Source of the DNA: Spirosoma aerolatum
GTDB taxonomy: Bacteria; Bacteroidota; Bacteroidia; Cytophagales; Spirosomataceae
Reading direction: 5' to 3'
NCBI RefSeq assembly: GCF_002056795.1
Contig: NZ_CP020104.1
Span: 5,093,501-5,157,500 of the forward strand
Length of the DNA: 64,000 bases
Shown one piece after another: positions 31,254 to 36,489 of this stretch. The notes below the pieces were generated by a model. That model was not told the DNA's origin. It was given only the letters and a program-made list of their open reading frames with translations, and made no database searches. Both the position numbers and the translations under genes were made by a program. Numbering within the stretch: position 1 is the stretch's first letter; every line of letters begins with the position of its first letter.

Positions 31254-31464
31254 ATTTTTGACTTTACGACTCTTCAGCGCCTTTTATCCGTCTATTGAAC
31301 GTATAACCAAAACTTATTTGATCATTCTATTGCATAACTCCATCCAATCGCCTATGATTGCGAACAATTGTAGATCAATCAGCAGCGTATAAACTAACAG
31401 CACAGAACTATATCTCCTTATCAATCAATAGTTTTCAGTTCCGCAGTTCTGCGTACAATAATGC
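31254..31464. other. Gap between GH28 gene and the first cassette core site
   Basis: I see no gene. The stretch becomes AT-rich and ends at a GTTGGGT core site. If an attI-type site exists it must lie here, but no clear GCCCAAC partner was found within 120 bp upstream. Confidence 0.5.
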
Positions 31465-31471
31465 GTTGGGT
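31465..31471 (+). other. First core site of the array (attI-like or residual attC)
   Basis: GTTGGGT preceded by GC, as in integron core sites, but with no matching GCCCAAC at the usual 80-90 bp upstream. It is the left boundary of the repeated region. Confidence 0.45.
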
Positions 31472-31499
31472 GAACAGCCAAAAAGTGGTGTTCGTGTGC

Positions 31500-31650
31500 C
31501 AGCTTCTGTGCGACAGGCCGCACGTCCGCGACAGGGTGTTTTTTTGCTCATCAGGCGGCTTCGGTTGACAAGCCAACCGCCCCTTAATTTAAGGCTTGAC
31601 AAGTTAGGTAGGTTACTTGTGACACGAGAAACACCCCGGTAAGCAAGTGG
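31500..31650 (+). repeat. GACAGG-repeat leader of cassette 1
   Basis: Copies of a degenerate GCGACAGG/TTGACAAG element spaced roughly 15-50 bp, with a TTTTTTTGCTCAT segment and a closing GTGACACGAGAAACACCCC. The start codon that follows is 200 bp after the core site. The same leader type precedes the genes of cassettes 3 and 5. Confidence 0.7.
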
Positions 31651-31671
31651 GTAGCAAAAAATAAAAAGAAT

Positions 31672-32031
31672 ATGGTTTGTCATCGGGAAATCTTCTTTGA
31701 AAACCAACTACCTTCAATAGAGGAAATAGTCAAGCATGTCAGTCAACGAACTGGTCTTGAGCCAATTTATGATGAGAACGACTGGTCATTGACAAATCCA
31801 CATGATGAGATTGATTCATTTGGAATTTACTATGATGAGTCAAATCAGATTGTATTAACCAACTTCGGCTCATTGACTTATTTACTGGGCGCTACGTTAC
31901 ACACTTTAATTGCTATGGGCGGCAAATATGATGCGAAACCAGCTCAGTGGCCGACAAAGAAATGGAGTGAGGTTGCTGAGAAAGTCAAATCATTACCCCG
32001 ACAGGAGCATCCTGATTGGGTGTTTGATTAA
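31672..32031 (+). CDS. Cassette 1 protein, unknown function
   Basis: A 119-residue acidic protein (MVCHREIFFENQLPSIEEIV; FGIYYDESNQIVLTNFGSLT; KPAQWPTKKWSEVAEKVKSL). It has no signal peptide or membrane segment and looks like a compact alpha/beta cytoplasmic protein; proteins of this general make-up are often immunity-like or orphan cassette products, but no family is recognised. The ATG is 200 bp after the core site and the stop is 57 bp before the attC. Confidence 0.6.
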   Translation: MVCHREIFFENQLPSIEEIVKHVSQRTGLEPIYDENDWSLTNPHDEIDSFGIYYDESNQIVLTNFGSLTYLLGATLHTLIAMGGKYDAKPAQWPTKKWSEVAEKVKSLPRQEHPDWVFD

Positions 32032-32087
32032 TTTCGCATGGGTACCTGTCTGGCGACAGGAAGCGCGTCCCGTAGGCAAGCGGGTCA

Positions 32088-32175
32088 GCCCAACCAAACA
32101 GGGGTGTAAAGGTTGCAAGTGACTTGTGTTCAGGGAGGTAGCTTCATCATCCATCAACCCCTGTGGGTGTTGGGT
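32088..32175 (+). other. attC-like site 1
   Basis: 88 bp from GCCCAAC (R'') to GTTGGGT (R'). Inside, CAGGGGT (L'') is complementary to ACCCCTG (L'), with CAAA and TGGGT as unpaired spacers between R and L stems. The centre has the GTAAAGG and CCATCA segments shared by nearly all six sites. Confidence 0.8.
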
Positions 32176-32551
32176 GGCGGGTCAAAAATGGGTTCATAAG
32201 GCGGGTTACCTGCGACAGGGGAGCCGCCCCGACAGGCTGGCTTTTTGGCTCATTGGTTGGCTTTCGGTCGACAGGTTACACGGCTCCAAGGTGAGTTTTT
32301 TTGCTCATTGGTCGACTCCCGTTGACAGGCCAGCCGCCCCCTAATTCGGGCTTTGCCAAGCTGGGTAGCTCCCTGGCGACACCACAAACGCCCCGGTTGG
32401 GCAGGTTGAGCCAAGCGGTTTAGGTGCGTTGTTGGGCCGGTTCGCCGGTGCGATTCGTGTTTCGGCGTGAAATCGGTTTGCTGCGTTTGTGTTCGCTCGG
32501 CGTGGGCAGGCTCCCGCTGACAGGAAGCACGTCCCGAAGGCAAGCGTGTCA
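32176..32551 (+). other. Cassette 2: leader repeats without a convincing gene
   Basis: The 462-bp cassette holds at least five GACAGG-type elements (near 32213, 32229, 32268, 32323, 32517), the closing GCGACAnnAnAAACGCCCC segment at about 32372, then roughly 100 bp with no good reading frame. A reverse-strand frame across it reads through the repeat and the attC and is judged chance. Confidence 0.6.
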
Positions 32552-32637
32552 GCCCAACCAAACAGGGGTGTAAAGGTTCAGACGGTTCGCGTTCAGTTGA
32601 GTTGTTTGCCCACCATCAACCCCTGTGGTCGTTGGGT
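32552..32637 (+). other. attC-like site 2
   Basis: 86 bp from GCCCAAC to GTTGGGT with L stem CAGGGGT/ACCCCTG and spacers CAAA and TGGTC. A GACAGGAAGCACGTCCCGAAGG segment, shared with other sites, ends about 12 bp upstream. Confidence 0.8.
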
Positions 32638-32842
32638 GCAAAGCTAACAGGGGCTTGCAAGGCGGGTTCCTTGCGACAGACAGAGCGGCTCAAAGGTCAG
32701 GCCTTTTGCTCGTTCGGCGGCTTCCCTGTGACACGAGAAACGCCCCGACAAGTCAGGTTTTGGTTTGCAAAGCAGCATCTTGGCGACAGAATAAACGCCC
32801 CAGTTGGGCAAGCCTTAAAACTTAACAACTTAAACAATTTCT

Positions 32843-33244
32843 ATGGAAGCAAGTACCTCTACTGAGTTAGTATTCCCACCGCTTTGGAAACGAATTGGGG
32901 CTTATGTAATTGACCTCTATTTCATTTTTATGCTGGCTTATGTCCTGATTATCATTCTGCCAGAACCGCTTGCCGATCGATTTCGATTAGCCATTTTCGC
33001 ATTAGCTGTTCTTTATGAGCCTATTTGCAATGCTACATTAGGCTACACATTTGGGTCTTTTCTTTTTAGGTTTCGCGTAAGAGATTCGGCTGACATAAGC
33101 AAAAAATTACCTTTTCATAGGGCTTTACTACGCTTTGTAGTCAAAGCGTTATTAGGGTGGATTTCGTTTTTGACAATTCACTCCGATCCTATGCGTAGAG
33201 CCATCCACGACCGTGCAGCAGGCTCAGTTGTCATTACCAAATAA
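32843..33244 (+). CDS. Cassette 3 protein: RDD-family membrane protein
   Basis: A 133-residue membrane protein with about three hydrophobic segments. LWKRIGAYVIDLYFIFMLAY carries the Arg and Asp of the RDD family in its first segment, NATLGYTFGSFLFRFRV the central motif and MRRAIHDRAAGSVVITK the closing HDR-AG motif. RDD proteins are small inner-membrane proteins, some acting as Na+/H+ antiporters; the role here is unknown. The ATG is 205 bp after the previous core site and the stop is 52 bp before the next attC. Confidence 0.85.
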   Translation: MEASTSTELVFPPLWKRIGAYVIDLYFIFMLAYVLIIILPEPLADRFRLAIFALAVLYEPICNATLGYTFGSFLFRFRVRDSADISKKLPFHRALLRFVVKALLGWISFLTIHSDPMRRAIHDRAAGSVVITK

Positions 33245-33296
33245 AGCATGTGCCGTGTCGCGGGTGACAGGCAGCACGTCCGAAGGAAGGTGAGCA

Positions 33297-33381
33297 GCCC
33301 AACCAAACGGGTGTGTAAAGGTGCAGCTACGTGTGTTTAGTTGAGTTGAGCGCCCACCATTAACCCCCTGGGCCGTTGGGT
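33297..33381 (+). other. attC-like site 3
   Basis: 85 bp from GCCCAAC to GTTGGGT. The L region (CGGGTGT against ACCCCCTG) pairs less well than in the other sites. The centre keeps GTAAAGG and CCATTA. Confidence 0.7.
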
Positions 33382-33726
33382 GGAATATTAATGCCGAATT
33401 TCAAAGTCCAGCATCCGGGCGACAAGTTGCACGGCTCGTGAGGGCAGTTTCGTTCTTTCATTTCTGGCTTCGGTCGACAGGCCGCACTTGGGGACAGGTC
33501 ACCCTTTTTGGGCAGGTCAGGTGGCGGATGCCAGCGGACAATTGGGCGTTGACAGGCTCCCAAAAGCGTCGGTCGACACCAGGTACTTGAGCCGTTGGCA
33601 GGCTCGACAACGTAGCAAGCTGCCGCGTCAAGCTTCGCGCTCGGTTTAATCGGACCGTGCGTTGTTATCGCTCCGCGCGGGGTCGCTGCCGGGTGACAGG
33701 CAGCACGTCCCGAAGGAAAGTTGGCA
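33382..33726 (+). other. Cassette 4: no convincing gene
   Basis: A 433-bp cassette with GACAGG/GACAAG elements near 33419, 33474, 33492, 33549 and 33694. About 345 bp lie between its core site and the next R'' site; short frames on either strand run through the repeats. It may carry a non-coding RNA, a decayed gene or only a leader. Confidence 0.55.
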
Positions 33727-33814
33727 GCCCAACCAAACAGGTGTGTAAAGGTTGCAAGTCACTCGCGTTCAGTGTAGTTTTGCCATCATCCATCAACCCC
33801 TGTGGGTGTTGGGT
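33727..33814 (+). other. attC-like site 4
   Basis: 88 bp from GCCCAAC to GTTGGGT with L arms CAGGTGT and ACCCCTG (one mismatch), spacers CAAA and TGGGT. Confidence 0.8.
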
Positions 33815-34013
33815 GGCGGGTCTAAGATGGTAGTGTAAGGCGGGTTACGGTCGACAGGCAGCGCGGCTCGACAGGTAGCTTTTAGGCTCGTTGGTCGGCT
33901 TTGGTTGACAGGCCAAACAACTGAGTTAGGGAGATAAAAAGTAAGTTTGTTACGTCCGCTGCGACAGGCTAACCATTATAAGCAGGAAAACAATTTAGGT
34001 CCCGTTAGCAAGT

Positions 34014-34523
34014 ATGAGAAGTTTCGTTTTTTCTGAGAATACTGACCGGTATAAAACCTTAATTTGGCGACAATTTTATCACTCACAGAAAAAAGAGTTC
34101 TTTCAACGTAAACGGGTTCAGACAACCGCCTTACTTGTTATACCATTTTTATTGCTTTTGGCATACTTTGCCAATCATAATGCCAATAATTTGGTAGCTG
34201 CTTCCATTCTGTTTTTGGTGCTGTGTCTTTGGATATTGCTCTTTTTCGTAAGAAGAAGTTTGTTGAAGGAAAGTATTGCTGATTTTCCAAATAGACATCC
34301 ATATACGATAACACTAAGTGAGGAGGCTGTTACCTACTCAACAATAGTATCGCAAAGCGAAATAAAGTGGGAATACTTTCTTGAATACGAAGAATTTGAA
34401 AGAAACTTCATACTTTATTCACGCGAAAAACCTAAAGAGCCAATTTATTTGCCATTGTCCTTTTCCCCAGACAGTGAAGCTTTAGCCGCATTAGTTCGCC
34501 AAAAAGTTAAAGAAAGAGAATAA
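34014..34523 (+). CDS. Cassette 5 protein: YcxB-like membrane protein
   Basis: A 169-residue protein with a basic N-terminal part, two hydrophobic segments (about 41-55 and 62-79: ALLVIPFLLLLAYFANH and LVAASILFLVLCLWILLFFV) and a C-terminal YcxB-like domain (YTITLSEEAVTYSTIVSQSE, IKWEYFLEYEEFERNFILYS). YcxB-domain proteins are membrane-anchored proteins of unknown function. The ATG is 199 bp after the previous core site. Composition is AT-rich. Confidence 0.75.
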   Translation: MRSFVFSENTDRYKTLIWRQFYHSQKKEFFQRKRVQTTALLVIPFLLLLAYFANHNANNLVAASILFLVLCLWILLFFVRRSLLKESIADFPNRHPYTITLSEEAVTYSTIVSQSEIKWEYFLEYEEFERNFILYSREKPKEPIYLPLSFSPDSEALAALVRQKVKERE

Positions 34524-34598
34524 AAAAGGGGCTTTGGTATTTCGCATCCTGTCACCCTGCCGGGCGACAGGATGCTCGCCGGTTGGGAAGCTAGGGCA

Positions 34599-34685
34599 GC
34601 CCAACCAAACGGGGGTGTAAAGGTTGCGAGTGGTCTGTGTTCAGGGACGTAGCGTGTTCACCATCAACCCCTGTGGGTGTTGGGC
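34599..34685 (+). other. attC-like site 5
   Basis: 87 bp from GCCCAAC to GTTGGGC, which still fits GTTRRRY. L arms CGGGGGT and ACCCCTG. The segment upstream of R'' is more diverged than in the other sites. Confidence 0.8.
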
Positions 34686-34850
34686 GAATACAACAAGCAA
34701 TAAAAAAGGCGTGTTTACGGGCTTCGTGTGACAGGCTATACGTCTAGCGACAGGGCGGTTCTGGTTCATTAGGCAGTTCCCATTGACAGGGCAAACGCGC
34801 CGACAGATTGGGTTTTCCAGTTAAAATTAAGTGAATTAGTACAGATTTTT

Positions 34851-35513
34851 TTATGTACTTCTTTTATCTGTAACCTTGTTAAGATGATCTAATAATATTC
34901 TAGCAATATCTTCATCGGGAAAAATAGCTCCTTCAGCTTGAGCATTTTCAACTGTCGACCAAAGATTTTGACTTAGCTGCTTAATCATATTTTTAGCATC
35001 TGTATTGTCAACAATTGTATTTGTCTTCTCTACAAATTCAGGATCAAATGTTAGAGTGCTGTGTATTTCGCCGACTATACCTGATACTGCATTAACAAAA
35101 ATCCTGCGTGGCTCAATATCTCGTATTTCGTCACCATTGTACATAGAGCTTTTTATTTTAGCAATTTCGTCTTTTATCTTGTCGGTCTTAAAATCTATAA
35201 TTTCAAAGCTGTGCCCAAACTCATTACGAATTTTTCTAACAATATTTAGATCTGTCATAGCTGTTTTACTCAATAAGCCGATTGAGTAAGAGAGATTTAT
35301 TTTAGACGACAGTGTATTAAGAGATCCATTTGCATTAAATAAATTATCCTTATGCTTTTTGTTTCCAATCAGCTTCCTACGAAGTAGCTTTTCAAGGATG
35401 CTATCAATGTAAGACACCGCCATCAAACAGCATCCTCTGTCAGTTTCTTTATTAAGTTCTTTTCTTAACTTACTGACAGTTTTGAAGTTTTGGTAGATTT
35501 CCTCTTGAGTCAT
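34851..35513 (-). CDS. Cassette 6 protein: MtlR-like family, reversed orientation
   Basis: A 220-residue protein of the MltR/MtlR-like family. Matching segments are GCCLMAVSYIDSILEKLLRR, SLNTLSSKINLSYSIGLLSK and LNIVRKIRNEFGHSFEI, the core helices of that fold (E. coli MtlR is about 195 residues). It is the only cassette gene pointing against the attC direction, so it must have its own promoter. Strongly AT-rich. MtlR-like proteins are found in many contexts apart from mannitol, so a regulatory or defence-type role is possible but not shown. Confidence 0.75.
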   Translation of the reverse strand: MTQEEIYQNFKTVSKLRKELNKETDRGCCLMAVSYIDSILEKLLRRKLIGNKKHKDNLFNANGSLNTLSSKINLSYSIGLLSKTAMTDLNIVRKIRNEFGHSFEIIDFKTDKIKDEIAKIKSSMYNGDEIRDIEPRRIFVNAVSGIVGEIHSTLTFDPEFVEKTNTIVDNTDAKNMIKQLSQNLWSTVENAQAEGAIFPDEDIARILLDHLNKVTDKRST

Positions 35514-35666
35514 AAGTATACGGTATATAATTGCTGCTCTGATTTCTTTGGAGAACGTTTACGAAGTCAAAATTACATGAATATAAATAATGATCGAAGT
35601 TGTATGTCAGCTTCGTGATGTCACCCTTGCGGGCGACAGGCAGCACGTCCTGTAGGAAAGTTTTCA

Positions 35667-35753
35667 GCCCAACCTGCTGAGTGTGTAAAGGCAGCAGGTA
35701 CGTGCGTTCAGGTGAGTAGCTTGTAGAGCCATCAGCACTCAGGGTCGTTGGGT
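35667..35753 (+). other. attC-like site 6 with compensatory stem
   Basis: 87 bp from GCCCAAC to GTTGGGT. The L arms have changed together: CTGAGTG on the left and CACTCAG on the right, in place of CAGGGGT/ACCCCTG in the other sites. GTAAAGG and CCATCA are kept. Confidence 0.85.
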
Positions 35754-35790
35754 GAGAGGTTTTTAAGTAATCCAATAAAAATCACTTTTA

Positions 35791-36264
35791 ATGAAGCACG
35801 TTTTTCATTTACCCCAATTCCCAAATTCAACTTTTGAGATTGAGACCTCTATTTGGACTGGCAAATCAAAGTTGATTATGGACAATGAGATTTTAGAAAA
35901 AATTGACGAAAAAGGAAAACCTTTTTTAATTCCGACTCATGATGCAGGGTTTGTAAAAGCATTTCCTAAATCTTCGTTTCCTGATGCCATTTCAGTATTA
36001 GAAATAAATGGAGAAAATATTCAGATTTTAGAGAGACTAGAATGGTATCAGTACGTGATTGGTGGGCTTCCTATTTTACTACTTTTTGTCGGTGGAGCTA
36101 TTGGTGGTGGAATCGGTGCGGTCGGAGCGGTTACAAACTTCAGTATTTTTAGGCAAGAAGGCAGTGATATTTCTAAATATCTAAAAGTGATTGGAGTTAT
36201 CGTTGGGAGCTATCTTCTTTACCTACTTGTTGCTGGCCTATCTGTCCAATTGTTTAAAAAGTAA
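35791..36264 (+). CDS. Cassette 7 protein: small membrane protein, unknown function
   Basis: A 157-residue protein with a soluble N-terminal half (MKHVFHLPQFPNSTFEIETS; IWTGKSKLIMDNEILEKIDE) and two membrane segments near residues 90-110 (YVIGGLPILLLFVGGAIGGG) and 132-152 (VIGVIVGSYLLYLLVAGLSV). No family recognised. It begins 37 bp after the core site without the repeat leader. No attC follows; its cassette end appears lost. Confidence 0.6.
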   Translation: MKHVFHLPQFPNSTFEIETSIWTGKSKLIMDNEILEKIDEKGKPFLIPTHDAGFVKAFPKSSFPDAISVLEINGENIQILERLEWYQYVIGGLPILLLFVGGAIGGGIGAVGAVTNFSIFRQEGSDISKYLKVIGVIVGSYLLYLLVAGLSVQLFKK

Positions 36265-36489
36265 TGCATCATTATTTAGTAATAGGAAGCAATCCTGTGT
36301 GTAGCGGTGGTATTTCACATACCTGTTGACAAGTTAATCACCGTTCGACAGCACGTTGACAAATACGTTTTGGCCGACAGAGCAACATGCCTTAGTAGAA
36401 TCGTTTGACAGCCTCGGCTTGTTGGCTTCGGCCTCTCCCGGCTTATTCGGTTTCGTGCGTTGTTAGTCAGCCCCGTGTGGCAGGTTTAG
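36265..36489 (+). repeat. Residual GACAGG-type repeats at the right end of the array
   Basis: TTGACAAG, TCGACAGC, TTGACAAA, CCGACAGA and TTGACAGC elements recur at 36326-36412, but no GCCCAAC/GTTGGGT pair follows. GCGTTGTTAGTC near 36459 is a poor core-site match. The array seems to have been truncated here. Confidence 0.5.

Follow-up and report, generated by a model that had tools for sequence, protein, structure and literature searches.

A cassette array in Spirosoma aerolatum as a probable satellite of an integron-like system with an IntI-unlike recombinase

We analysed a stretch of 64,000 nucleotides from the chromosome of Spirosoma aerolatum (NZ_CP020104.1, positions 5,093,501 to 5,157,500; hereafter the window), which contains a row of small gene cassettes separated by sites that resemble the attC sites of integrons, systems of gene exchange known for their part in the spread of antibiotic resistance. 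The row is very probably a satellite cassette array of an integron-like system, and its cassettes are likely to have been moved by a tyrosine recombinase that is encoded ~193 kb away and is unlike the integron integrase IntI. The argument is drawn from sequence, and its elements are the layout of the platform, the covarying stems of the sites, the constant spacing between the integrase gene and an attI-like site, cassette boundaries at G|TT, the footprints of circle insertion and the absence from the enzyme of the insertion found in IntI. With somewhat less assurance, we favour the wider reading that the Cytophagales harbour a second integron lineage, having its own integrases, in which the I2 helix is missing and an N-terminal domain resembling a damage-recognition domain is present instead, together with three or more families of folded attC sites and arrays of superintegron size; recombination of folded ends would then have arisen twice or would predate the I2 helix.

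The window array and the platform in the same chromosome

The window holds six attC-like sites, 85-88 bp long from R'' to R', with R'' starting at 32088, 32552, 33297, 33727, 34599 and 35667. R'' reads GCCCAAC throughout, R' reads GTTGGGT or, in site 5 only, GTTGGGC, and each site has a complementary inner stem. The original prediction, made from the letters of the window, had named six sites with RYYYAAC/GTTRRRY-type boxes and an inner stem, and all of them were recovered where it had placed them. The cassettes measure 433-1068 bp. Three contain a forward gene and one a reverse gene, so that the small genes said to lie between the sites were found in four of the six cassettes; the other two (32170-32631 and 33376-33808) have no ATG-started open reading frame (ORF) of at least 70 amino acids (aa). 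The three forward genes stop ~57, 53 and 76 bp before the next site, in agreement with the 52-76 bp given earlier for co-directional genes. The features of the array are as follows, in window coordinates.

31437..31472, + strand: attI-like site AGTTCCGCAGTTCTGCGTACAATAATGCGTTGGGTG, with 3 mismatches to its counterpart behind the integrase gene, at another place in the chromosome
between 31465 and 31466: expected crossover in this attI-like site
31466..32169, + strand: cassette 1, ORF 31672-32031, 119 aa, no Pfam family
32088..32176, + strand: attC-like site 1
32170..32631, + strand: cassette 2, no ATG-started ORF of at least 70 aa
32552..32638, + strand: attC-like site 2
32632..33375, + strand: cassette 3, ORF 32843-33244, 133 aa, RDD family
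33297..33382, + strand: attC-like site 3
33376..33808, + strand: cassette 4, no ATG-started ORF of at least 70 aa
33727..33815, + strand: attC-like site 4
33809..34679, + strand: cassette 5, ORF 34014-34523, 169 aa, Pfam matches below threshold only
34599..34686, + strand: attC-like site 5 (R' GTTGGGC)
34680..35747, + strand: cassette 6, ORF 34851-35513 on the minus strand, 220 aa, MtlR family match
35667..35754, + strand: attC-like site 6
35748..36470, + strand: array end, ORF 35791-36264 (157 aa) and cassette-type repeats, no further site; right limit approximate

A lone GTTGGGTG at 31465 is part of the attI-like site. Cassette 5 has a counterpart among the cassettes of another genome (L180), with 80% identity across 687 bp. 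At gathering thresholds, Rfam gave no match in the window. The earlier claim that conserved sequence flanks the sites was borne out, and a ~55-bp periodic motif was found within the flanks. YGACAS motifs recur after R' (window 31473-31640, 32177-32540, 32640-32810, 33383-33700 and 33816-33980), also in the cassettes of other species; their spacings peak at 50-59 bp (98 of 281 spacings), and GACAGG is found in the 60 bp that precede R'' in 158 of 212 sites (33 loci; 28 sites of S. aerolatum and 184 of the 185 sites of related loci described below).

Folding of the aligned sites with RNAalifold gave 7 pairs between R'' and R', 8 pairs in the L stem and a short inner stem, and 5 pairs of the L stem were changed on both sides with the pairing kept. 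Over 28 sites, pairing is kept in 95.9% of the cells, and 43 cells combine it with change on both sides, a count that none of 500 shuffles reached (their mean was 13.4), while two of the five measures used, pairs with change on both sides and further pair types, did not rise above the shuffles. When the structure was slid by 1-3 columns, 31-54% of cells paired and only 0-4 did so with change on both sides. Conservation is poor in the middle of the sites. This covariation points to a conserved fold, and together with the R boxes suggests that the sites are attC sites.

The genome is a single contig (C1) of 7.96 Mb. A blastn search with one site revealed a second array of 22 sites at C1:4908233-4930295 on the minus strand, ~193 kb from the window array and headed by the following gene.

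C1:4930974-4932221, minus strand: tyrosine recombinase gene

At this main array the order is integrase gene, attI-like site AGTTCCGCAGTTCTGCGTACAATACTATGTTGGGTG and first cassette, and the genome thus has a complete platform of integrase, attI-like site and 22 sites. Since the left edge of the window array carries the main attI-like site with 3 bases changed, we read it as a copy of attI, and the window array as a separate platform without an integrase. The original prediction had seen an integron-type cassette array without a tyrosine recombinase, and had classed it as a CALIN (attC cluster without an integrase). The first part is supported and the lack of a recombinase holds for the window, but not for the genome; the CALIN label is too narrow for an array that has its own attI-like site and a complete platform in the same chromosome. 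A covariance model built from the 28 sites of both arrays gave 33 matches in the genome at E <= 1, 28 in the arrays and five single (one weak).

Four of six further array regions fetched from relatives also begin with an attI-like copy (two in G029, one in G023 and one in G017). In satellite arrays (window 31437-31472; L250, L251, L253 and L254) this copy is ~35 bp long, and no integrase remnant is visible. At the main array, a 22-bp inverted repeat lies at the left edge of the attI-like site (C1 about 4930599-4930670, locus L039, minus strand). Between integrase and attI there is an 82-aa ORF (L039:11751-11999, + strand; C1 about 4930751-4930999), antisense to the integrase gene and slightly overlapping its 3' end. 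Its protein sequence is conserved at all 32 of the 32 orthologue loci (51-87% identity; an in-frame stop in two) and has no Pfam match, and the ORF is possibly an accessory gene of the platform.

Linkage to the recombinase gene and cassettes as mobile units

We searched 36 genomes of the genus, including that of S. aerolatum, and found an intact or broken orthologue of the integrase in 25, the matched pieces in the other genomes being 60-83% identical; one further genome keeps a 53-residue piece. Sites at E <= 0.01 with the 28-site model were present in 35 of the 36 genomes (34 of the 35 others). Close orthologue loci with sites occur in Spirosoma sordidisoli, Fibrella aquatilis and Fibrella forsythiae. 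Across the family, 31 of 32 orthologue loci contained sites at E <= 0.001, 185 in number, and the best 150 of these were all on the strand of the integrase (150/150) and all on its 3' side (150/150). When our own locus was included, an attI-like site (GTTGGGTG in a similar context) followed the integrase match at 349-399 bp in 26 of 33 loci and at 810 bp in one; the context was judged by eye, and a strict pattern gave 16 matches in 34 sources. A sample of 390 genomes of the order yielded sites in 25, which belong to a single family; every one of the 21 genomes that have an orthologue was among them, versus 4 of 369 others. In searches at the scale of the order (>40 genomes) the filters were stricter and only a few candidates were scored in each genome, so that their site numbers per genome are lower bounds. 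Among 163 cassettes of up to 2.5 kb, 126 had a gene of at least 70 aa, which faced forward in 124 and stopped at a median distance of 66 bp from the site.

The same layout was found with other sites elsewhere in the Cytophagales. A genome of the same family (G332, enzyme 42% identical) has four sites with the boxes GTCCAAC or TCCCAAC and GTTGGAA. Flammeovirga enzymes, ~33% identical, head arrays of 68-71-bp sites of different sequence; in F. kamogawensis (G123), 80 sites on one strand extend over 62 kb after the integrase, and F. pectinis is represented by G068. A second site model was run over 341 genomes of the order and matched in 17; these are from families f18 and f12, and none is from the window's family. 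In L224 there are clear repeats after the integrase, with boxes that could not be resolved. The hairpins of the relatives came from a scan that looks for repeats first, and many of the hairpin ends it lists are noise. Most other relatives that were fetched had no site of either model near the integrase, and in many of them the contig ends there; the Firmicutes loci L046 and L047 likewise had no site of either model near the integrase. In L138, L146, L219, L220 and L225-L228 the contig or fetched stretch runs out ~20-400 bases from the array-side end of the integrase, which looks as if these assemblies had been broken by repeat arrays.

Evidence that cassettes are exchanged as units came from a comparison between genomes of cassettes below 4.5 kb. 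In two congeneric genomes (G133 and G261) the integrase regions align at 94.7%, the alignment ends at the end of the attI-like site, and the arrays beyond it differ except for their far ends (88.6%). The two have in common a cassette of 603 bp that is 99.5% identical, with both ends of homology exactly at G|TTGGGTG. It stands after the first site in one genome and after the third in the other. The boundaries thus coincide with the G|TT point, as had been anticipated in the original prediction.

In integrons, an R'' that is complementary to the previous R' is the trace left by insertion of a circle at G|TT. We found this trace in F. kamogawensis. The four variable bases of R'' complement the R' that precedes the site in 69/77 cases, compared with 9/79 for the R' of the site itself and 4/78 for the one that follows; 2000 shuffles yielded 8.5 on average and never more than 17. 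At the remaining loci the figures for the previous R' were 10/11, 6/7, 3/7, 1/2, 1/1, 1/1 and 0/1, and pooling the loci of these relatives gave 91/107 for the previous R' versus 10/119 for the own. In a further family with longer sites (L217), the figures were 3/4 and 0/5. The complement rule also predicts the box of attI, which was found 60-167 bp after the integrase stop in seven of eight loci tried, at a chance per locus of ~3-7%; the rule failed in L221. In these relatives the footprints argue for cassettes that inserted as circles at G|TT.

A recombinase outside the IntI clade

The integrase comprises Pfam SAM-like and catalytic domains, and 37-39 of 39 orthologues retain the catalytic residues. 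It scored 177 bits with the integron-integrase model (cut-off 265; IntI1, 508.6). The spacing between the two catalytic arginines is 93 residues (median of 112 measured among 120 homologues, range 92-105) versus 134 in IntI1, and is 98-99 in the XerC and XerD of the same genome; it was measurable in 112/120 and 99/120 proteins, in 21/29 IntI loci and in 63/120 Flammeovirga-type proteins. In array-bearing genomes the match to the IntI model breaks off at model position 177-181 in 18 of 18, none of them over the cut-off, and resumes at 231-243 in the ten genomes for which a second piece is listed. Judged by its sequence, the integrase is without the IntI-specific additional domain. The original prediction had directed attention to an integrase, specifically an IntI with the alpha-I2 insertion: a tyrosine recombinase is indeed present in this and in related genomes, but it lacks the insertion, and no match in the genome exceeded the integron-integrase cut-off.

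The enzyme also fell below the cut-offs for XerC (176 of 335 bits) and XerD (160 of 330 bits), and the genome has separate genes of these kinds (L001, over the XerD cut-off, and L003, best with XerC). With XerA_Arch (NF040815, 'site-specific tyrosine recombinase/integron integrase'; cut-off 220) it scored 192 bits, and its relative in F. kamogawensis 224.7 bits. In a phylogenetic tree the IntI proteins form one clade (support 100/100) and the array-heading non-IntI enzymes with their relatives another (98/91), with the Xer rows outside both (100/99). Relatives for which no array was seen lie among the array-heading enzymes. This was the second tree, from which two rows with very long branches and two distant relatives in the first had been left out; its depth is unsure because some branches are long. 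On this sequence evidence, the recombinase is not an IntI and belongs to a separate lineage without I2.

An AlphaFold model of the whole chain had a mean local confidence (pLDDT) of 82.6 with a global score (pTM) of only 0.49. XerA was its first structural match, with IntI4 close, the structural alignment rows spanning residues 113-388. Residues 1-92 make up a domain of their own (pLDDT 86.3), for which no significant structural match was found; the best was archaeal XPB (E 0.073, probability 0.96), and the HARP domain of SMARCAL1 had E 2.5. The predicted fold is weakly reminiscent of the damage-recognition domain of XPB, which we take as a lead only.

Proposed working, alternatives and relation to known systems

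In the working that we propose, a cassette would be a circle with one folded attC, and the recombinase would pair this attC with attI or with another attC, the crossover falling between G and TT of GTTGGGT. The point of entry for new cassettes would be attI, and the window platform would be served in trans by the integrase ~193 kb away. The linkage suggests that it is this enzyme that carries out cassette recombination, and the substrate is presumably a folded single strand. From the structural model, the extra N-terminal domain may take over the recognition of hairpins that I2 provides in IntI.

Several observations weigh against this proposal. Single-site folding energies were only modestly low and favoured neither strand. 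Eleven of the 36 genus genomes have no intact or broken orthologue (one has the 53-residue piece), and ten of these still carry sites, so that arrays must outlive or lack their enzyme. No site was found near the integrase in L177, and the attI-like site was absent in 6 of 33 orthologue loci. The counts of co-occurrence are not phylogenetically independent. Complementarity to the previous R' was low in L241 (3/7) and L242 (0/1), and in Spirosoma-type arrays 13 pairs fitted the previous R' better, 8 the own R' and 2 were ties, a weak result because the boxes hardly vary there. Service of the window platform in trans is suggested by the shared attI-like sequence alone.

The linked enzyme might move cassettes on double-stranded sites, as Xer proteins do, with the stems being just inverted pairs of binding sites. 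We consider this unlikely. The enzyme does lack the I2 insertion that IntI uses on hairpins, and the energies do not reveal a strand asymmetry of the fold; however, that the L stem keeps its pairing through sequence change suits recognition of a folded form better than that of a fixed sequence, and the poor conservation of the middle of the sites also speaks against such an explanation. It is very improbable that an IntI integron, since lost, left the window array behind as an ordinary CALIN, with the recombinase at the main array incidental. Such a history would fit a window that itself has no integrase and the several genomes that carry sites without an orthologue, but none of the 390 genomes of the order had an IntI over the cut-off. 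The control genomes of that search also gave no match, while a search of the phylum, serving as positive control, found IntI over the cut-off in 105 of 395 genomes, one of them in the same class. Further points against it are how strictly integrase, attI-like site and sites are positioned in orthologue loci, and the same layout kept by relatives with different sites; an orphan CALIN was rejected once the integrase-bearing platform had been found in the genome.

We give little credence to the host XerC and XerD as the enzymes that recombine the sites, with another role for the linked enzyme: XerC- and XerD-like genes are present in the genome, but as separate genes, for which reason they were rejected, and only the linked enzyme tracks the attI-like sites and the arrays in position and strand. 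Least credible of all are dispersed repeats or remnants of small transposons, for although the genome also has a few solitary sites outside the arrays, this candidate was rejected on the 28 of 33 matches that lie within two arrays, and the tested array sites all face one way, the common cassette of two genomes is bounded at G|TT, and R'' in relatives matches the start of its own cassette.

IntI integrons have folded attC sites with RYYYAAC/GTTRRRY-type boxes and a crossover at G|TT, and by sequence the same appears to hold here. As in IntI chromosomal integrons, a putative attI stands beside a tyrosine recombinase gene and the cassettes of the arrays mostly face one way. Unlike in IntI integrons, the integrase falls in another clade, has no IntI-specific insertion and bears an extra N-terminal domain; its gene reads towards attI, which in Spirosoma would lie ~380 bp past its 3' end; and there are satellite platforms with attI copies. 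The catalytic core is shared with XerA, XerC and XerD, but the Spirosoma enzyme differs in remaining below all three model cut-offs, in its N-terminal domain and in its linkage to arrays. For a canonical attC model, 30 IntI loci fetched from the phylum gave too few clear sites.

With at least two sites and no integrase nearby, the window formally fits a CALIN as outlined in the relevant sections of PMC9024848 and PMC8618304, the latter of which treats the origins of CALINs; it differs in the attI-like site that heads the array and in the integrase-bearing platform of the same genome. The complete integron of Salinibacter is presented in PMC9024848, in the part concerned, as the first in Bacteroidetes. 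The IntI-specific domain figures as defining feature and search criterion in passages of PMC9668308 and PMC2426708, and because this domain was tested for and is absent, our system falls outside the accepted definition of an integron. Passages of PMC7790495 treat the I2 helix as the accepted route by which integron integrases gained recombination of folded single-stranded attC, and regard I2 and single-strand recombination as exclusive to IntI, as do those of PMC4792948; direct proof of the role of I2 is lacking because, according to PMC7790495, deletion of I2 kills IntI1. For the 'integron-like' subgroup of simple tyrosine recombinases, the section of PMC8138268 on that subgroup calls the insertion essential for integron function, and describes no arrays for members without it. 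Among the portions of the open-licence literature consulted, no description of a system such as the present one was found.

By most sequence tests the system appears integron-like, and its novelty would lie in a second integrase lineage. A natural lineage with integron architecture and without I2 would make the question of I2 testable. Surveys that demand the IntI-specific domain would miss such platforms and would at best list their arrays as CALINs. If the reading is true, gene capture of the integron kind would work in a second, unrecognised way.

Two kinds of cassette gene were also noted. Genes of the PD-(D/E)XK transposase family occur in three listed cassettes of the main array (among 14, 16, 19 and 21; Pfam was run on two). 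A NADAR gene is present in the Spirosoma array as well as in an array of Flammeovirga, whose sites are different (L147:6204-6809).

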